Positions 1,157 through 51,700 of a stretch of DNA of 64,000 nt are shown here, piece after piece. The DNA is from Oscillospiraceae bacterium. Its GTDB lineage: Bacteria; Bacillota; Clostridia; Oscillospirales; CAG-272. Under the pieces are notes generated by a model, which searched no databases, was not told the origin of the DNA, and saw only the letters and a list, made by a program, of their open reading frames with translations. Each line of letters opens with the position of its first letter. Position 1 is the first letter of the stretch. The stretch covers positions 1 through 64,000 of the forward strand of contig SVRZ01000012.1 of assembly GCA_015064555.1 (NCBI GenBank), given 5' to 3'. A program made the translations under genes and the position numbers.

Positions 1157-2092
1157 ATGGATATTTTTACGACGATGATCACACCTTTTACCGCGGATGG
1201 CGAAGTTGATTACGATACGGCTAAAAAGTACGTAGATTGGTACTTTGAGAATGGTCTGACGGGTATATTTGCCGTATGCCAATCCAGCGAGATCTTTTAC
1301 CTTTCGCTTGAAGAGCGCGTAAAGCTCAACCGCTTGGTGTACGAGCGTGCAAAGGCGCTTGAAAAAGAGCATGGCCGCCGCTTCACCGTGGTGTCTTCCG
1401 GACACGTTTCGGACAGCCTTGAGGAGCAAGCGCGGGAGCTGAACGCCATTTGGGAGTCGGGCACCGATACGTTAATTTTGATTACCAACCGCTTAGACCC
1501 AAAAAATGAAGGCGACGACATTTGGATAGAAAACTGCAAAAAGCTTTTAGAGCTTCTTCCTATCAACGTCAAGCTTGGTCTTTATGAATGCCCATATCCC
1601 TACAAGCGCCTTGTCACTCCAAAAATCCTTGATTTTTGTCTTTCCACAGGAAAGTTTTACTATATAAAGGACACCTGCTGTGATACCGCTATAATTGCCG
1701 AGCGTTGCCGTCAGTTAAGGGGAAGCAACCTTAAACTTCTCAATGCTAACTGTCAAACGCTTCTTGAATCCTTAAGAAGCGGTGCTGACGGATACTGCGG
1801 CATTATGTGCAACTTTCACCCCGCGCTTTACGCGTGGCTCGGCGAAAACTTTAATACCGCTCCCGATTTGGCAGAGCTTGTGCAGTCGGTTGTGGGCAAC
1901 TTTGGCTTCACCGAGGTCGGGCTTCCGTATCCTCTGACTGCAAAATACCATATGAATCTTTGCGGTATTCCGACAGAGAACGTTGCACGCAACCGAAAAA
2001 GCGAAGAGCTGACCGCATACGCCAAGAGCTGTATGGAGCAAATGAAACTTGCCACGGACCATCTTTATAAATATTTGAAGGGACGGAGTTGA
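1157..2092 (+). CDS. Dihydrodipicolinate synthase / N-acetylneuraminate lyase family protein
   Basis: Class I aldolase-type lyase or synthase of the DHDPS/NAL superfamily (TIM barrel, 311 aa, about the normal length). Visible landmarks are the N-terminal TPFTADGEVDYDTAKKYVDW, the tyrosine region GLYECPYPY near residue 150 and the Schiff-base lysine in FYYIKDT near residue 172. The substrate cannot be read from these motifs: family members cleave sialic acid or 2-keto-3-deoxy sugars, or make dihydrodipicolinate. It lies 7 nt upstream of a BNR/sialidase-like gene and opposite an AraC regulator, which favours a sugar-catabolic role over lysine synthesis. A RBS (GGGAG) precedes the ATG. Confidence 0.85.
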   Translation: MDIFTTMITPFTADGEVDYDTAKKYVDWYFENGLTGIFAVCQSSEIFYLSLEERVKLNRLVYERAKALEKEHGRRFTVVSSGHVSDSLEEQARELNAIWESGTDTLILITNRLDPKNEGDDIWIENCKKLLELLPINVKLGLYECPYPYKRLVTPKILDFCLSTGKFYYIKDTCCDTAIIAERCRQLRGSNLKLLNANCQTLLESLRSGADGYCGIMCNFHPALYAWLGENFNTAPDLAELVQSVVGNFGFTEVGLPYPLTAKYHMNLCGIPTENVARNRKSEELTAYAKSCMEQMKLATDHLYKYLKGRS

Positions 2093-2099
2093 ACTAAAA

Positions 2100-3485
2100 A
2101 TGAAATGCTGTAACACCTGGAGTTATCATCCCTATCGACCGTTGCTCAGGGAGGTTGGTAACATTTATATCTCTCGCACTGTGCCATATAAGGATAAGAT
2201 CCACTTTGAGTGGTTACCCACAGATGACACCACTTACTCGGTTTTTTATAAAAAAAGCGAGGACGAGGGATTTGTTCATTATTCAGATACCATAGATACC
2301 TTTTGCGATATAGAGGGGCTTTCCCCTGAAACCGATTACGCCTTTTACGTAAGTGCAAAAAGCGGAAAAAGCCGCGTGCGGCTTGCAAGATGCGGAGAGA
2401 GTGTCGGTACGGTCGTCAACTATCTGCACCCGGATGACGAGGCTTATGCCTTCTCGGGACGCTATCTTTGCTCACCCTCGCTCGTGCGCCATCCTGACGG
2501 TTATCTTTTGTCCTCGATGGACGTATATGCGGGCGGTCATCCGCAAAACCTGACGCTCATCTTTCGCTCCGACGACGAAGGCGAGAGCTGGCATTACGTC
2601 AGCGAGCTTATGCCTTGCTTCTGGGGCAAGATGTTCATTCACCGCGGAGAGCTCTATATGCTCTCATGCGACACTGAATACGGAGATCTGCAAATAGGCA
2701 AATCCATTGACGGCGGAAAAAGCTTCTCGGCTCCCGTTACACTTTTGCGCGGCGCAAACGGCAAGAACGGAACGCCCGGAGTCCACAAAAACCCTCAGAA
2801 CGTGGTGCATTATAACGGCAGGATATACGAAACGCTGGAATGGGGCACTTGGGAAAATAAGGACTACCGATTCGCCGCTATCGTTATGTCCTGCGATGAA
2901 AACGATGATCTTTTAGTGCCGGAGAATTGGCACTTTACCGAGCCGCGTACGTTCGACCGCTTTTGCCCCGAGCTCGATGTGCTACCGCTTGACAGCGTAC
3001 ACATCGAAGGTACGCTCGCCGTTGCGCCCGACGGAAGACTGTTGAACGTCATGCGATTCCACGGATTGTATCACAAGGTACTTGTATACGAGGTCGATCT
3101 TGAAGACCCTGACGCGATGCTGCGCTTTTCACACCTTGCAAATTTCCCTGCGAATTTCACCAAATTCATGATAAAACGTGATGATAAAACGGGTTACTAT
3201 TATTCAATAGGCACTCGTGTATACTCGCCGGAAAAGACGGGCGTGCGTAATCTGCTTTCGCTCTTGCGCTCGCGCGATCTTATGTCCTGGGAGATAGTTT
3301 ACGACATTCTTGATTATAGAAATATCGACGATAAGCACATAGGCTTCCAATACGTTGATTTTGAAATAGAGGAAAACGATATAATTTTTCTTTGCAGAAC
3401 CTCTTTTAACGGAGCTAACAACTACCACGACTCAAACTATCAGACATTCCACAGAATAAAGAATTTTCGCAATATAACCCAATAA
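2100..3485 (+). CDS. BNR-repeat / sialidase-like (six-bladed propeller) protein
   Basis: 461-aa protein with Asp-box (BNR) motifs typical of sialidase-fold propellers: [12 protein letters not shown] (about 158-169) and SIDGGKSF (about 202). A fibronectin-III-like stretch precedes them (residues about 25-100). No signal peptide is seen, so it is probably cytoplasmic. It is co-transcribed with the lyase 7 nt upstream, so a NAL-like lyase plus sialidase-like enzyme would fit release and cleavage of a sialic acid or related sugar. Many BNR proteins in Clostridia are not true sialidases, however, and the arginine triad cannot be confirmed by eye. Confidence 0.75.
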
Positions 3486-3540
3486 AAACAGTGTCGAAAC
3501 AGTCAAAATTGTAAATATATGTTGTCCTTTATTGACCGCA

Positions 3541-3687
3541 CTCCTGTCGGGCTCGCCTATAATTCAGAACGGTAAGCTTGTCGGTGCGGTGACCCACGTG
3601 CTCATCAACGACCCCTCCACGGGCTATGGGATTTTTATTTCAAACAGTCCCCCAAGCAGCGTAAAGCGAAAGAAGCTGAGTCATTAA
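3541..3687 (+). pseudogene. spoIVB: 3' remnant of SpoIVB peptidase (S55)
   Basis: One frame reads [20 protein letters not shown] and continues [14 protein letters not shown]. This is the conserved C-terminal core of the sporulation peptidase SpoIVB, with the GxSGSP active-site serine. There is no upstream PDZ or peptidase portion, and the reading frame runs into the inverted repeat at about 3660, ending at TAA 3685. It is therefore a short fragment stranded between the BNR gene and the island edge, probably left by a rearrangement involving the repeat. An intact spoIVB would have to lie elsewhere. Confidence 0.8.
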
Positions 3688-3865
3688 CTTAGCTCTAAAA
3701 AAAGAAAAAAGCGGATGTTCTTTACCGAAAGGTATTGAGCATCCGCTTGCTTTGTTGTATAATTTAATTACCACAAAAACCACACACAAAGCAGCGAGGT
3801 TATTATACAACAATGAGAGAAAAAATCAAGTAGTTTTACCGTTGTATTTAGGAATTTGTATTCCC
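3673..3865 (+). repeat. Left 193-bp inverted repeat bounding the AT-rich island
   Basis: Imperfect inverted copy of 9421-9613, the same length. Shared parts: a GCTGAGTCATTAAC end, an outward-facing terminator (GCGGATG...CATCCGC), a TTGTTGTATAAT...ATTATACAACAA pairing that is also kept in the other copy, and the first codons of a transposase. A degenerate 17-bp direct repeat (14/17 match) of its outer end recurs at 4004-4020, after the transposase fragment, so 3675-4020 may be one truncated element. Confidence 0.8.
3701..3747 (-). terminator. Outward terminator at left island edge
   Basis: Stem GCGGATG/CATCCGC (3711-3717 with 3740-3746) with an inner TACC/GGTA pair. On the minus strand it is followed by a T-rich run, so it can end transcripts from the leftward lipoprotein operon. 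Confidence 0.7.
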
Positions 3866-3997
3866 GAGGGAGATTTTGTATGCAAAGTAGCAGAAATTTG
3901 CGAGAGTTTGGACTACACAGAATTATTCAATACGTATCTTCGCAGTTGGAGAAAAGTAAATCCCATCACAATGTTTGAGATACTTGTATTCGCATAG
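3812..3997 (+). pseudogene. Truncated IS1182-like transposase N-terminus
   Basis: The frame reads NQVVLPLYLGICIPEGDF and goes on with SLDYTELFNTYLRSW and KVNPITMFEILVFA before a stop. This resembles the N-terminal region of IS1182-family transposases (an I/V-P-x-D/G-D stretch, then a hydrophobic helix of the kind P-x-x-x-x-x-I-L-V-F-A). Only about 60 residues remain, with no DDE catalytic part. A homologous start, on the opposite strand, is in the right repeat (9421-9474). The family name is from memory of the motif and moderately certain. Confidence 0.65.
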
Positions 3998-6155: not shown

Positions 6156-6216
6156 CTATTTTACAGTTACTATTGAAAACATCAAAAACAAATTTGTAAA
6201 TAATTCAAAAACCAAT

Positions 6217-6245
6217 TTGACAATACCTGTTTTTCGTGATATAAT
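6217..6245 (+). promoter_or_regulatory. Promoter of the XRE-YhcG-MNT/HEPN unit
   Basis: Perfect TTGACA (6217-6222), 17-nt spacer and TATAAT (6240-6245), 30 nt before the regulator ATG. This is the only good promoter for the three-gene unit, so the XRE protein probably controls it. Confidence 0.75.
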
Positions 6246-6274
6246 AAAACAAAAACTACGCAAGGAGTGTTTTA

Positions 6275-6640
6275 ATGAAAAAAAGTACAGTTGTAGCAGA
6301 GAGATTGAAAAAGCTGCGTGAAGGTTCACACCTTTCGCAAGCAAAGCTCGCTGAACAATTTGAGGGAGTAATGCAGAGTGCCGTTTACCGATACGAAAGC
6401 GCAGAGTCCTTCCCCCCGTATAGCGTGCTTATGCAGTATGCGGATTTCTTTGACGTTTCCCTTGATTACATTTTCGGAAGAACGGACAACCCGCAAGGCA
6501 AGCTCTATAAGTACCAACCGAAAATCATCATCGAGGACGAGCGTATGCAAGACTTTATTGAAATGTGCTTCGATCCGAACACCGAAGCCAATGCCAAGCT
6601 CAAACAAGCCTTGCTATCACTATTGGAGGAACAGAAATAA
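6275..6640 (+). CDS. XRE-family helix-turn-helix regulator
   Basis: 121 aa. Residues about 8-66 form a Cro/CI-type HTH (RLKKLREGSHLSQAKLAEQF, then MQSAVYRYESAESFPPYSVL and ADFFDVSLDYIFGRTD), the usual XRE layout with the YxFGRTD tail. The C-terminal 45 residues may serve dimerisation. It is the first gene behind a consensus promoter (RBS AAGGAG), and its stop codon overlaps the ATG of the YhcG nuclease (TAATG). In defence and toxin-antitoxin loci, such upstream XRE genes usually repress their own operon; that role is inferred here. Confidence 0.9.
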   Translation: MKKSTVVAERLKKLREGSHLSQAKLAEQFEGVMQSAVYRYESAESFPPYSVLMQYADFFDVSLDYIFGRTDNPQGKLYKYQPKIIIEDERMQDFIEMCFDPNTEANAKLKQALLSLLEEQK

Positions 6641-7635
6641 TGGCAGATATTATTAACTACAACGATTTTGAAAATATTATAGAAATTATTGAGCAATCCA
6701 AAGCACGAGCTATTAAAGCCGTCAATGCCGAAATGATTGAAATGTATTGGCAGATCGGAAAGTATATCAGTGAAAAAGCGAACAACGATGGTTGGGGTAA
6801 AAGTGTCGTACAGGATTTTGCTAATTTTTTGAAACAGACATACCCATCCGCAAGTGGATTTTCGGCACAAAATATATGGCGAATGAAACAATTTTACGAA
6901 ACCTATAAAGGCAACGAAAAACTCTCACCACTGGTGAGAGAAATTACATGGTCAAATAACCTTTTGATTATGTCGGGTTGTAAGACTGATGAGGCAAAGG
7001 AATTTTATTTAAGACTTACAATTACAAATGGCTATGGAAAGCGCGAACTTGAACGCCAGATAGACAGTATGTTATTCGAGAGAACAATGCTTTCTACGGC
7101 TAAAAACAAGAGTTTAATCGAAAAACACCCTGCTGTTAGTGCACTTCGCGATACCTATGTACTTGAATTTTTAGACATTCCCGAAGATTACAAAGAAAAG
7201 GATTTGCGTAAATCCATTATTACAAACTTAAAACAATTTATTTTGGAATTTGGAAAAGACTTTACGTTTATGGGAGAGGAATATCGTGTGCAAGTCGGTA
7301 ACACCGATTTCTTTATAGATCTTCTTTTTTATAACCGCGCTCTTTCCTGTCTTGTTGCTGTTGAATTAAAGGTTGGCAAATTCAAGCCCGAACATCTTGG
7401 ACAACTCAATTTCTATTTGGAAGCACTAAATAGAGATGTAAAGAAGCCGAACGAGAATCCAAGCGTCGGCTTGATACTTTGCACGTACAAAGATGATACT
7501 GTTGTCGAATACGCTTTAAGTAGCAATCTCTCTCCTGCTATGGTTGCAGATTATACCTTGCAGCTACCTGACAAGAAATTACTCGAAGAAAAATTGCGTG
7601 AAATTACAATGCTTGCTGATGGTGAAGAAGATTAA
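6640..7635 (+). CDS. YhcG / DUF1016 family PD-(D/E)XK nuclease
   Basis: 331 aa from the ATG overlapping the XRE stop (GGAGG at 6626); a start 75 nt upstream lies inside the XRE gene and is unlikely. The N-terminal DUF1016 domain (about 5-160: MYWQIGKYI, GWGKSVVQDFANFL, WRMKQFYETY) is a predicted DNA-binding module. The C-terminal PD-(D/E)XK fold shows the metal site D in DFFIDLLFYNR and ELK in AVELKVGKFKPEHLGQLNFY. The family is common in mobile and restriction-like loci and has been proposed as a nuclease. Between a regulator and an MNT/HEPN protein, a defence or toxin role is plausible but unproven. Confidence 0.9.
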   Translation: MADIINYNDFENIIEIIEQSKARAIKAVNAEMIEMYWQIGKYISEKANNDGWGKSVVQDFANFLKQTYPSASGFSAQNIWRMKQFYETYKGNEKLSPLVREITWSNNLLIMSGCKTDEAKEFYLRLTITNGYGKRELERQIDSMLFERTMLSTAKNKSLIEKHPAVSALRDTYVLEFLDIPEDYKEKDLRKSIITNLKQFILEFGKDFTFMGEEYRVQVGNTDFFIDLLFYNRALSCLVAVELKVGKFKPEHLGQLNFYLEALNRDVKKPNENPSVGLILCTYKDDTVVEYALSSNLSPAMVADYTLQLPDKKLLEEKLREITMLADGEED

Positions 7636-7661
7636 ACTTTGCTTGTATGGAGATAAATAAT

Positions 7662-8582
7662 ATGACTACCATAGAAATATTTGATTTGAAAGATTTCATA
7701 AACAGATTAGTTTCCAATTTTTCAAACATAGAGCAAATCCATATATTTGGTTCAAGAGGTTATCGAACCAATAGCAAACGTTCAGACATCGATCTTTTGT
7801 TGACTATTTCAAAAAATGCTCCCATAATAGACAAGACGCAATTACAAATATTCCAAGAGGAATTTGCACCCGTTGATTTGTTTATAAACCGGGAGTATTC
7901 TGCGCAATCGGTTGTAAATAATAGCGAAATTATTAAGCGAACAGAAAAAACTTTGATAGATCAACTTGATGCAAAATGTTTATGGCAAAAAGAAAATGGA
8001 TTTTACAATGAAAACTCAGTTTACTTTCGCCAAGAAATAATCAAACATCAAACTTTTCACCCCAGTTATATTCCACAGTACGATCAATTTGAAACATTCG
8101 AAGCAATCATTGCATCGTGTTCTCAAATAACATCCTCACAAGCTTTATATTTGGAGGAGGCGGTAAAATGCTACACAAATCAATGCTATTTAGGATTTTT
8201 GTCTATGATGGGTACATATTATGAAGATCTACTGATATCTTTTTGTAATGCATATCAAAATCGAGTTGCTACTCATCTGTCTGCGCATTTGACAAATTAT
8301 ATCAATGCTGTTATACCGACTACGGTTAGAATAGGCGCAAAGAAAAGGTTGGAAAACTTAGTAAATTTCATCAATAGTATCCCTACTGAAGCACCATACT
8401 TTAAAAGAAATGGAATTGAAGCAATTACAGAATTTGAAACAGTATTTGACATAATCAGATTATATAGAAACGATATCGATCACCCGAATGGTATAGCATA
8501 TGGCGCACGTGATTGTGACTCTATAATTGCAATTTTCGTCAGGTATGTAAAGGATTTTTATGATATTATGACAACATTTTGA
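7662..8582 (+). CDS. MNT nucleotidyltransferase fused to a HEPN/DUF4145-like domain
   Basis: 306 aa; the ATG at 7662 has GGAG nine bases upstream, while the ATG at 7647 has no RBS. Residues 28-75 carry a minimal nucleotidyltransferase site: G30-S31 (FGSRGY), D42 and D44 (SDID) and a third carboxylate D72 (APVDLF). The C-terminal half is helical and resembles HEPN/DUF4145 domains (YLEEAVKCYTNQCYLGFL), ending in R269-N-D-I-D-H274, an Rx4H motif like the HEPN RNase site. MNT and HEPN are normally separate antitoxin and toxin genes; here one polypeptide holds both. AMPylation-type autocontrol of an RNase is the natural hypothesis. 26 nt downstream of the nuclease. Confidence 0.75.
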   Translation: MTTIEIFDLKDFINRLVSNFSNIEQIHIFGSRGYRTNSKRSDIDLLLTISKNAPIIDKTQLQIFQEEFAPVDLFINREYSAQSVVNNSEIIKRTEKTLIDQLDAKCLWQKENGFYNENSVYFRQEIIKHQTFHPSYIPQYDQFETFEAIIASCSQITSSQALYLEEAVKCYTNQCYLGFLSMMGTYYEDLLISFCNAYQNRVATHLSAHLTNYINAVIPTTVRIGAKKRLENLVNFINSIPTEAPYFKRNGIEAITEFETVFDIIRLYRNDIDHPNGIAYGARDCDSIIAIFVRYVKDFYDIMTTF

Positions 8583-8601
8583 AAGTAGAAGGAGGATACT
8601 A

Positions 8602-9135
8602 ATGCGAGCAGTTATATATGCCCGTTATTCTTCGGATAACCAACGAGAAGAAAGTATCGAAGGTCAAATCCGTTAATGTATGGAATATGCGAGCTACAAT
8701 GAAATAACGGTTGTTGACACCTACATTGACCGCGCTTTATCGGCTAAAACGGATAACCGCCCGGAATTTCAGCGTATGATAAAAGACAGTAGCCGAGGTG
8801 CGTTTGATTTAGTTATCGTATGGAAATTAGACCGTTTCGCCCGTAACCGCTACGACTCTGCACATTATAAGGCAACCTTAAAGAAAAACCGTGTCAAAGT
8901 TATATCGGCAACCGAAAGCATATCTTCCGATACAAGCGGTATTCTCCTTGAAGCTATGCTTGAGGGATATGCGGAATACTATTCCACCGAGCTTTCCGAA
9001 AAGGTCAAGCGTGGACTGACCGAGAACGCCTTAAAAGGCTTGTGGAATGGCGGTCAAGTGCCTTTCGGTTACGTTATGAAGAACTTGAAAGTTCAACCTT
9101 GTTTTCACAAGGTGCACCATATCGAGTGTTCATAA
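8602..9135 (+). pseudogene. Serine recombinase (resolvase/invertase N-domain), broken
   Basis: Starts with RBS GGAGG and reads MRAVIYARYSSDNQREES, the catalytic N-terminus of a large serine recombinase (Ser in YARYSS). It is interrupted by TAA at 8674-8676, where relatives have a codon for the residue after GQIR (probably GAA). The same frame then continues for about 135 residues (WKLDRFARNRYDSAHYK, AMLEGYAEYYSTELSEKVKRG, NGGQVPFGY). It then leaves the family at about 9075 and stops at 9133. The DNA-binding and recombinase domains are missing, so it is both truncated and nonsense-mutated. It was probably the mobility gene of the island. Confidence 0.9.
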
Positions 9136-9164
9136 CGAAACTGAGTTTTGTTAGAACACTCGAT
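9080..9164. repeat. Cluster of three hairpins at the recombinase break point
   Basis: Adjacent inverted repeats: GAACTTGAAAGTTC, ACCTTGTTTTCACAAGGT, and an 11-bp stem ATCGAGTGTTC/GAACACTCGAT (9121-9131 with 9154-9164). They begin where the recombinase homology stops, as an element end or insertion scar would. Downstream to 9420 I see no convincing gene. Confidence 0.55.
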
Positions 9165-9420
9165 ACTTTTTAAGCCTTAGTTTTCTTAATATTGAGTTGT
9201 TTTGAACAGGTTTTCTGCTCTTTTTTCTTTTTATACCGCTATTACTCGGTAATAGCCTTGCGAAAAACCCAAACGTAAGGATTCAAAGAAAACAGCCTCA
9301 TCTATTGCCACCAAACTGCTATTTTTAGGGGGGCGCATCTTAAAAATTTATCAATCTACTTAAGTGCTCACAGACTTGAACATAACAGATCGTCATGGCT
9401 CATCAATTGCTCTCAAAAAT

Positions 9421-9613
9421 GGGAATACAAATTCCTAAATCTAACGATAAAACTATTTGATTTTTCTCTATCATTGGTGTATAATTATCTCGCTTTCTTG
9501 TGTGGTTGGGTTTGGTGATTTAATTATACAACAAAGCAAGCGGATGCTCAATACCATTTCGGTAAAGAACATCCGCTTTTTCTTTTTTTGTCGCTGAGTT
9601 AATGACTCAGCTT
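9421..9613 (-). repeat. Right 193-bp inverted repeat bounding the island
   Basis: Inverted partner of 3673-3865. It contains, on the minus strand, the start of the same transposase (ATG at 9474, reading NQIVLSLDLGICIP before homology stops at about 9421), the TTGTTGTATAATT/AATTATACACCAA pairing, and the terminator. Its outer end makes a GCTGAGT...ACTCAGC stem that can also terminate the Fic gene. Two IS ends facing each other across 5.6 kb look like a decayed composite element. Confidence 0.8.
9540..9587 (+). terminator. Outward terminator at right island edge
   Basis: Stem GCGGATG/CATCCGC (9540-9546 with 9570-9576) followed by a long T-rich run. It closes rightward transcription from the XRE-nuclease-MNT/HEPN unit. 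Confidence 0.8.
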
Positions 9614-9615
9614 TT

Positions 9616-10503
9616 TTATATCTCAACATTAAATTTCTTCAAAATTTCCTCAAATTTATCCTGCGCTGAAAGGCAGGTATCAAGAAGATAACCTCGCTCT
9701 TTATTCCACTCTTTAAGACCTCGGTAGTAGAAAAGCTTATGCTCCTCATCAATGATAAAAGGCGTAATATTGTGCTTTAAGCACTCCTTAAACATAATCA
9801 GCCTGCCGACTCTTCCGTTTCCGTCTTGAAATGGGTGTATACGCTCAAATGCAACGTGAAAATCGATTATATCTTCAAGAGTTAACGGTGCCTTTTTATT
9901 ATAGCTTGCGATCAAAGCCATCATTTCTCGGCTTACGTCCTCGGGCGCGGTTGTGTCAGAGCCGCCAACCTCATTGGCAAGCTTTTTGTATTCGCCTACT
10001 TTGAACCAATCAAGACGGCTGTCGCTCGTTCCGATTTTAAGAAGAAAATGAAGCTCCTTGATATGTTTTTCCGAAAGCGCAAGATGAGCGTTATCTATCA
10101 TATAGTCAATGCATCTGAAATGGTTTGACGTTTCAATAATATCGTCAACGTTGACCGCCTTTTCGGAAAGTCCTATCGTGTTCGTTTCAAAGATATACCG
10201 CGTTTCGTCGTGAGTAAGCTTCGAGCCCTCAATATGATTTGAATTATAGGTCAAGTCTATCTGCACTCTGTGATAAATTCCGCCCGAAAGACGAGCCGAC
10301 TTTTCCTCGCGCAAAATGTCAAGAAGCGTGCGCTTCTTGTCCGAGCGCGGAGCCCTTTTCGGCTTCTCTGCGCCCTCGGGAATTTCCCAAGTCTTGCCGG
10401 AAATCCGAGCACCCGCAACTCGCCCTGCGGCGCAATAGTTACGCACGCTTCGCTCGGAAATTCCCCATTTTTTCGCCGCCTCTGCAACCGATATATATAT
10501 CAT
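9616..10503 (-). CDS. Fic-family protein (class II inhibitory motif) with N-terminal HTH
   Basis: 295 aa from the ATG at 10503 (RBS GAGGTGAA; an upstream in-frame start lacks one). Residues 1-42 are an excisionase/MerR-like winged HTH (SVAEAAKKWGISERSVRNYC ... SGKTWEIP). Residues about 85-295 are a Fic domain: inhibitory motif S88-NHI-E92-G93, catalytic H223 in HPFQDGNGRVGR, flap before it. Fic proteins transfer AMP (or other phosphate groups) to protein hydroxyls; the (S/T)xxxE(G/N) helix in the same chain marks a self-inhibited class II enzyme, so no partner antitoxin is needed. The HTH together with repeats in its promoter suggests autoregulation. Confidence 0.92.
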   Translation of the reverse strand: MIYISVAEAAKKWGISERSVRNYCAAGRVAGARISGKTWEIPEGAEKPKRAPRSDKKRTLLDILREEKSARLSGGIYHRVQIDLTYNSNHIEGSKLTHDETRYIFETNTIGLSEKAVNVDDIIETSNHFRCIDYMIDNAHLALSEKHIKELHFLLKIGTSDSRLDWFKVGEYKKLANEVGGSDTTAPEDVSREMMALIASYNKKAPLTLEDIIDFHVAFERIHPFQDGNGRVGRLIMFKECLKHNITPFIIDEEHKLFYYRGLKEWNKERGYLLDTCLSAQDKFEEILKKFNVEI

Positions 10504-10523
10504 AAAATTCACCTCAAAAAATG

Positions 10524-10573
10524 TTATCGGCAATTTATATTAGTATTATACCACATTATCGGCAAGATATCAA
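10524..10573 (-). promoter_or_regulatory. Fic promoter with paired operator-like repeats
   Basis: Minus strand: TTGATA (10568-10573), 17-nt spacer, TATAAT (10545-10550). The decamer TTGCCGATAA occurs twice on that strand, inside the spacer (10557-10566) and just after the start region (10524-10533), 33 bp apart (about three helical turns). An opposite-strand TTGCCGAT lies at 10604. The position fits repression by the Fic protein's own HTH. Confidence 0.7.
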
Positions 10574-19140: not shown

Positions 19141-19312
19141 TAGTGAAGTTTTCGCTTACGCGAAAGTGAAGTTGCTTTGCAGTGAAGTTCGTGCTATCAC
19201 ACGAGTGAAGTTAAGTTTGCCACTTTGCCAAAGGCAAAACTTCACTATCTGCAAGATAACTTCACTTACGAAGTAAACTTCACTTGCCCGAATGGGCAAA
19301 CTTAGTTGCGTA
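19141..19312. repeat. Micro-hairpin array A (spacer word AGTGAAGTT / AACTTCACT)
   Basis: Short unrelated palindromes (TTCGCTTACGCGAA, GCTTTGC, CGTGCTATCACACG, TACGAAGTA, TGCCCGAATGGGCA) are separated by one constant word: AGTGAAGTT four times, then its complement AACTTCACT three times, plus a partial last copy. The words invert about the middle (about 19225), so the whole array can also fold as one long stem carrying side hairpins. It fills the gap between two AraC genes. No ORF is supported inside. Confidence 0.85.
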
Positions 19313-51565: not shown

Positions 51566-51700
51566 ACCTCATCCACCGGGCGCGTGCGCTAAAGCTTCCG
51601 CGCGATGAAATTACCTGCGGTAATGAAATCCGACAAGGTCGGATGAAATCTGCCGGTGGCAGATGAAATCCCAAGCACAGCTTGGGGTGAGAGGTAGATT
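51566..51700. repeat. Micro-hairpin array D (spacer word ATGAAAT)
   Basis: TACCTGCGGTA, CCGACAAGGTCGG, CTGCCGGTGGCAG and CCAAGCACAGCTTGG hairpins are separated by ATGAAAT. The array begins with TTACCTCATCCACCG, the same end sequence as the MITE-like element that follows. No ORF is supported in 51482-52069. Confidence 0.8.

Follow-up and report, generated by a model that had tools for sequence, protein, structure and literature searches.

Two cargo genes between an XRE-family regulator and a broken serine recombinase: a probable variable slot in a decayed mobile element of an Oscillospiraceae genome

We analysed a run of genes in the window, by which we mean the whole 64-kb stretch under study (positions 1 to 64,000 of contig SVRZ01000012.1, Oscillospiraceae assembly GCA_015064555.1). 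The run (Table 1) comprises an XRE-family regulator (Pfam HTH_3, 32.5 bits against a cut-off of 23), a member of the YhcG/DUF1016 family, a protein that combines a minimal nucleotidyltransferase (MNT) with a HEPN-like half in one chain, and the remnant of a serine recombinase. YhcG belongs to its family by its domains (Pfam DUF1016_N, 155.2 bits against 32.8; YhcG_C, 192.6 bits against 32.5), and its nuclease activity is predicted. A preliminary description of this DNA had reported a perfect promoter ahead of the XRE gene, an overlap of the YhcG start with the XRE stop, tight spacing, and a set of MNT and HEPN motifs in the third protein. All of these are present: the boxes TTGACA (6217-6222) and TATAAT (6240-6245) are separated by a 17 nt spacer, the YhcG ATG at 6640 falls on the last base of the XRE gene, 26 nt lie between YhcG and the third gene with both frames open, and the motifs are in place when counted from the best start of the third gene (ATG 7662, with GGAG at 7649; an alternative in-frame ATG at 7647 would give 311 aa). 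The broken recombinase and the end of the element at 9119 are both absent from that description. The G+C content is 0.455 for the XRE gene, 0.369 for YhcG, 0.327 for the MNT-HEPN gene, 0.444 for the recombinase and 0.467 for the window.

Table 1. Features of the XRE-recombinase locus (positions in the window)
Feature	Position	Strand	Basis or remark
Two direct repeats TCAAAAACNAATTTG	6182-6196 and 6205-6219, 23 bp apart	.	candidate operators; second overlaps -35 box
Sigma-70-type promoter TTGACA-17-TATAAT	6217..6245	+	boxes identical in L209
XRE-family regulator, 121 aa	6275..6640	+	HTH_3 above cut-off
YhcG/DUF1016 PD-(D/E)XK nuclease (predicted), 331 aa, cargo gene 1	6640..7635	+	Pfam, PADLOC PDC-S02
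MNT plus HEPN-like single-chain protein, 306 aa, cargo gene 2	7662..8582	+	Pfam on MNT half, motifs
Subregions of third gene	MNT ~7662-7970; HEPN-like ~8010-8579	+	
Codons of third gene	R269 8466-8468; H274 8481-8483	+	
Serine recombinase remnant	8602..9136	+	Resolvase domain; premature stop; internal loss against L209
CACCA, right end of L209 similarity	9115..9119	+	equals tRNA-Pro 3' end in 5/5 fetched empty sites
Terminator hairpin	9120..9171	+	follows tRNA-Pro in same-genus genomes

An empty copy of the locus is found in L209 (L-numbers denote fetched loci), which comes from another genus of the same family as the window genome. The window sequence 6181-6649, which includes both repeats and the promoter, matches L209 4941-5410 with 92% DNA identity, and 8595-9083 matches L209 5407-5894 with 95%. 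The two blocks are adjacent in L209, where the XRE gene is followed directly by a serine recombinase; the window therefore has 1.95 kb extra at one joint, and this extra DNA, which separates the stop of the XRE gene from the start of the recombinase, is YhcG plus the MNT-HEPN gene. From a last block (window 9077-9119, L209 6822-6864) it can be seen that the window recombinase has lost about 930 bp internally; it also has an in-frame stop after 24 codons. The L209 enzyme has 521 aa with Resolvase, Recombinase and zinc-ribbon domains, and a relaxase gene and a NikA-like gene lie in its neighbourhood. The window copy should no longer be expected to move by its own recombinase. Together with the loci described below, this comparison suggests that 6181-9119 is probably the integrase-side end of a decayed integrated mobile element with two cargo genes in a variable slot.

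The two anchors of the slot recur in other genomes. XRE orthologs (E<=1e-25) are present in 20 of 395 family genomes, the source genome included, and in the family a serine recombinase starting M-x-x-VIYARYSS often lies downstream of them. In 22 of 31 tabulated XRE loci (30 fetched loci and the window), a recombinase stands close by, downstream and in the same orientation; it begins within 35 bp of the XRE stop in 11 loci (empty slots) and after 183-1962 bp in the other 11 (filled slots). Some of these loci are close relatives of each other (L103/L104, L212/L213 and L106/L108), and there are also similar elements and a shared genus; for this reason the counts do not represent independent events. 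A scan of viral contigs that started from the recombinase found a strong XRE match upstream of seven of the 12 closest recombinases. Among close recombinases, the pairing with an XRE gene is frequent without being a strict rule. Plasmids of Subdoligranulum and Monoglobus carry relatives of the XRE protein. In L129, L214 and L215 the same XRE type is followed by a conserved small gene (about 120 aa, possibly DUF4180), without a close recombinase in the fetched DNA.

The content of the slot varies. YhcG lies in the slot or behind the XRE gene in five of the 31 loci (the window, L106, L108, where it is broken, L138, where the contig ends inside it, and L210), and the MNT-HEPN gene does so in the window only. 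Other cargo includes an AAA ATPase (L105), a DinD/BRO-like protein (L132), an AbiTi-like protein (L135), a DUF6236 protein (L216) and a SWIM protein (L108), as well as unnamed proteins in L130, L211 and L137; the slot of L136 contains no open reading frame (ORF). Several of these proteins match families in the PADLOC collection of defence systems and candidates (AbiTi, E 6e-39; PDC-S13, E 6e-123; PDC-S02, E 3e-125), and the YhcG of the window matches the defence candidate PDC-S02 over nearly its full length (E 8e-129). At E<=1e-14, a cut-off picked after the cargo values had been seen, 5 of 10 scanned cargo proteins have a match, against at most 5 of 48 other window proteins, where five models had one member each (Fisher 0.009 with 5 of 48 controls, 0.001 with 2 of 48). 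The L105 ATPase is just above this cut-off (E 2e-14), and the scan covered neither the small L137 ORF nor the YhcG proteins carried by L106, L108 and L138. Cargo was also exchanged: the YhcG proteins of the window and L106 are 90% identical, their XRE proteins 47%, and the DNA similarity between the two loci begins at 6635, at the XRE stop. The locus type thus combines two conserved anchors, variable content, empty copies and known or candidate defence genes, as expected for a hotspot.

Further genes were seen beside some of these modules. Helix-turn-helix-Fic (HTH-Fic) genes recur there: the window copy, at 9616-10533 (minus strand), is close to the element's right end, and those of L212 and L216 stand left of the XRE gene; the assignment is based on Pfam for the window and L216 copies and on DNA similarity for L212. 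In L216 (5630-10943, with the XRE gene set on the plus strand), Wadjet-type genes (a JetA match and an SbcC-like ATPase) directly follow a truncated recombinase, and in L211 an OLD-like ATPase and an ADP-ribosyltransferase-family protein are found at 1489-3943, left of the XRE gene.

The preliminary description proposed that the XRE regulator, YhcG and the MNT-HEPN protein work together as one system. If this were the case, they would form a single defence or addiction system with the recombinase as a mere neighbour, and the single promoter, the overlapping or closely spaced starts and the open frames of both cargo genes could be read in this way. However, in L106, L108 and L210, the three other slot loci whose sequence continues beyond YhcG, YhcG stands behind the XRE gene without the MNT-HEPN gene. 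YhcG_C matches occur in 24 of 148 class genomes (own genome included) at 33 places, and in 20 of these neighbourhoods, all from other genomes and several cut by contig ends, neither an ORF with the MNT pattern nor a relative of the third protein was found within four ORFs of YhcG (0/20). Most of these 20 YhcG genes have no obvious partner by eye, and at least L061 and L073 lie in restriction-modification loci. Co-occurrence elsewhere was the check that the description itself had named, with failure of the genes to co-occur counting against its claim, and the triple was not recovered in other loci. In 11 of 31 loci no cargo separates the XRE gene from the recombinase, and it is with the recombinase that the XRE gene belongs. 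A three-gene system is not supported, and we consider it very improbable. Of the broader proposal of a defence or toxin-antitoxin module, the single promoter, the close genes, the PADLOC-listed YhcG and the single-chain MNT/HEPN-like protein stand; the joint system does not.

An alternative explanation is that the XRE regulator and YhcG alone form a two-gene toxin-antitoxin or autoregulated nuclease pair, to which the MNT-HEPN gene was later recruited. The five loci with YhcG directly behind the XRE gene would fit such a pair, as would L067, whose YhcG has two XRE-like genes upstream. L067 is, however, the only one of the 20 neighbourhoods with a relative of the window XRE (phmmer E<=0.05, a search that other helix-turn-helix genes would escape); the remaining 19 have none, XRE orthologs precede several other genes, and in a YhcG tree the four slot members fall in two places (2 changes; the broken L108 copy was left out). 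The explanation by a fixed pair is therefore unlikely, if less so than that by three genes, and we return to the reading of an anchored slot with exchangeable cargo.

The right end of the element lies at a tRNA-Pro site. From 9116 onward, the window flank agrees with the DNA that follows tRNA-Pro genes in all five fetched same-genus loci whose match covers the start of the flank, and the terminal CACCA is accordingly the tRNA 3' end; the identity of the tRNA at the joint was established for the window flank only. In 13 of 19 other loci (L100, L103, L104, L105, L108, L109, L209-L213, L136 and L137) a CACCA falls within the 3'-terminal part of the recombinase frame; among the other six, L130 ends with its contig and L131-L135 show no CACCA, and L107 and L216 were outside the test. 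Since the joint is inside the frame, the stop codon and the C-terminal tail of the recombinase come from the flank, and in an excised circle the tail would differ. The sequence after the joint usually forms a strong hairpin: at 11 of 14 sites, the window included, its fold is among the top 5% when compared with random windows from the same locus; L104, L209 and L213 do not reach this rank.

The source assembly, which is 82% complete, has two tRNA-Pro genes of its own, one (tgg) on contig C30, 633 bp away from the end of that contig, and one (ggg) on C3, where the distance is 1459 bp. Neither has in its 3' flank the terminator that relatives show, and the partner tRNA is therefore ambiguous. 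L231 resembles C30 across the tRNA and the DNA before it (72%) and, further downstream, the window (76%), and L233 matches the C3 tRNA with 95% identity over 87 bp. The island is likely to extend between the end of C30 or C3 and window position 9119. We also considered 6181-9119 as a complete mini-element inserted at intrinsic terminators. This was rejected: the empty sites are tRNA-Pro genes with their terminators, and no tRNA body is present at the left boundary, which means that 6181 only marks the end of the similarity to L209. On C30 (L330 1264-1700), three partial 5' pieces of tRNA-Pro, about 190 bp apart, precede the whole tRNA-Pro gene and are possibly old integration scars.

The MNT-HEPN chain is the new part of the locus, an unusual one-piece protein. 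Its MNT half matches Polbeta (28.8 bits, cut-off 26.9) and NTP_transf_2 (23.1 bits, cut-off 21) in Pfam and retains the intact signature GS 30-31, D42/D44 and D72; in a phmmer search against the PDB the best match of the protein is 2rff (E 0.0016), in this half, and the search gave none for the L011 relative or for YhcG. For the C-terminal half Pfam gives no match at E 10, and a profile search of the PDB with it returned nothing credible (best E 0.05 and 0.1). It contains R269-x4-H274, in the stretch RNDIDHPNG, which satisfies the HEPN motif R-x4-6-H. The pattern R-x2-R-N-x3-H-P-x-G is invariant in an alignment (A4) of the window protein with four relatives of this half, namely L011 and L012 (94% identical), a protein from a Paenibacillus plasmid, and L022, where another N-terminus is fused. 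The weaker match L023, kept outside the alignment, reads R-N-E-V-T-H without the P-x-G that would follow; L024, also outside it, is weaker still and full of stops. To judge by eye from the neighbouring ORFs, the L011 and L012 relatives lie in type I restriction loci. The motif and the genomic surroundings make it likely that the C-terminal half is a HEPN domain. The HEPN-like protein of L011 and L012, with 282 aa, stands after an HsdS-like ORF in the former and before an HsdR-like ORF in the latter, again by eye.

Full-length relatives were absent from the family, class and phylum genome searches (146, 391 and 398 genomes; overlapping sets, 935 in all), in which the 15 matches besides the protein's own covered the MNT half only (13) or the C-terminal half only (2). 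Plasmids gave two partial matches and no full-length one, phages and genome contigs none, and viral contigs none with short peptide patterns and one DNA pattern, which distant relatives could escape. A motif-pattern match in the genome contigs lies inside a protease-like ORF and was dismissed as a chance match. On a Methylocapsa plasmid (L009, 4001-4372), near a transposase gene, an MNT reading carries the GSRxYRTxSxRSD motif of the window protein.

The protein may not be a toxin at all: the helical C-terminal half may bind a substrate of a resistance-type or regulatory nucleotidyltransferase. A published survey (PMC3710099), in its passages on such fusions, describes HEPN domains fused to MNT in one chain as having typically lost the RNase residues and as substrate-binding or regulatory, and the window protein has a weak NCBIfam match (12.1 bits, cut-off 193) to a family of aminoglycoside adenylyltransferases. 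The same passages also list occasional MNT fusions of a mostly conserved HEPN family. However, R-x4-H is intact in the window protein and invariant in its four aligned relatives, including the two near-identical ones from the putative restriction loci. We regard this explanation as rather unlikely; that the MNT-HEPN protein acts as an RNase has, in our estimate, a little less than an even chance.

The motif of the HepT toxin is R-x4-H-x-Y, and AMPylation occurs on the Tyr next to the catalytic His. In the window protein Pro-Asn-Gly follows the catalytic His and the motif Tyr is absent; the HepT-type route of Tyr AMPylation does not fit for this reason.

Several observations weigh against the reading of a defence-gene slot in a decayed element with an active HEPN protein as cargo. 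In nine of the 31 XRE loci no close recombinase is present: a contig end truncates L110 and L138, the recombinases of L214 and L217 are distant ones (23-26% identity), and the fetched DNA of L102, L106, L129, L215 and L218 shows none. Among the 80 loci kept in the viral scan, the upstream XRE match was strong in 8 (7 on contigs already counted and one new, L246), weak in 15 and absent in 57, some of the latter with less than 1 kb of upstream DNA. Six of the 11 filled slots have no PADLOC match at the cut-off (L105, L130, L136, which has no ORF, L137, whose small ORF was outside the scan, L211 and L216). The window contains no tRNA, and the left end of the element and the tRNA body lie outside it. 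The PADLOC match of the third protein is weak (best PDC-S09, E 3e-6, in the MNT part), and its single-sequence AlphaFold model has a mean pLDDT (predicted local distance difference test) of 35.1 and a pTM (predicted template modelling score) of 0.22, values too low for a four-helix bundle with R269 and H274 at the dimer face to be read from it. An hhalign comparison of the HEPN-like half with eight DUF4145 domains, based on shallow alignments, gave probabilities of 2% and 1%, the motif being aligned in register but without significance.

With these points in mind, the locus might function as follows. The XRE protein would repress its own promoter through the repeats at 6182-6219, where binding is predicted, and because of this self-repression a resident element would express its cargo and recombinase only weakly, as a single transcript. 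Both element and host would be protected by the cargo, with YhcG acting alone as a DNA nuclease and the MNT-HEPN protein as an independent abortive-infection RNase; nucleotidyl transfer by the fused MNT half may keep the HEPN half inactive or turn it on. The full combination, in which a self-contained toxin and control chain with an intact HEPN RNase and MNT switching without AMPylation of a post-His Tyr is carried in a dedicated, translationally coupled serine-recombinase slot, and in which the attachment (att) site in the 3' end of the recombinase gene lets integration set the C-terminus, is one that we put forward tentatively and consider doubtful.

Phages are already known to have defence-gene hotspots flanked by a repressor and an integrase (Rousset et al. 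2022, PMC9122126), and the slot is therefore best described as a variant of this type. It resembles the hotspot, as portrayed in the relevant sections of that study, in being a small variable slot between a regulator and an integrase with a mixture of known and unknown defence genes. It differs in its anchors, an XRE regulator and a large serine recombinase, in the position of the cargo within one XRE-recombinase gene string, and in its carriers, as L209 has mobilization genes and some other carriers come from a viral collection. In a limited literature search we met no description of an XRE-serine recombinase defence slot. The single serine recombinase, and in L209 the relaxase and the NikA-like gene, recall integrative and mobilizable elements as parts of PMC5704250 present them; unlike those elements, the locus has its right end at a tRNA 3' end and its joint in the recombinase frame (13/19), and the window copy is broken. 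The combination of MNT with a HEPN-type motif is shared with the MntA/HepT type VII toxin-antitoxin system, as far as PMC7641770 outlines it, but here one chain takes the place of two genes and the MntA model scores 18.9 bits against a cut-off of 60. Compared with PADLOC PDC-S02, the window YhcG is ordinary apart from its slot position. No paper joining HEPN, nucleotidyltransferase and DUF1016 was found in our literature search.

Two further features of the window may be recorded. The segments 9421-9617 and 3669-3865 are inverted copies of a 200 bp repeat (87% identical), which has more matches in same-genus genomes, and two Gut-1 RNA matches are located at 19234-19308 (minus strand) and 51603-51674 (plus strand).

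The anchors provide a simple rule, this XRE gene upstream and this recombinase downstream, which picks out candidate defence genes even from short contigs and reaches unnamed candidates such as those of L130 and L211. If our reading of the third protein is true, this single chain, in which an MNT is joined to an intact HEPN motif, would depart from the published trend that HEPN domains fused to MNT lose their RNase residues, and it would offer a simple test case for the control of HEPN by MNT.

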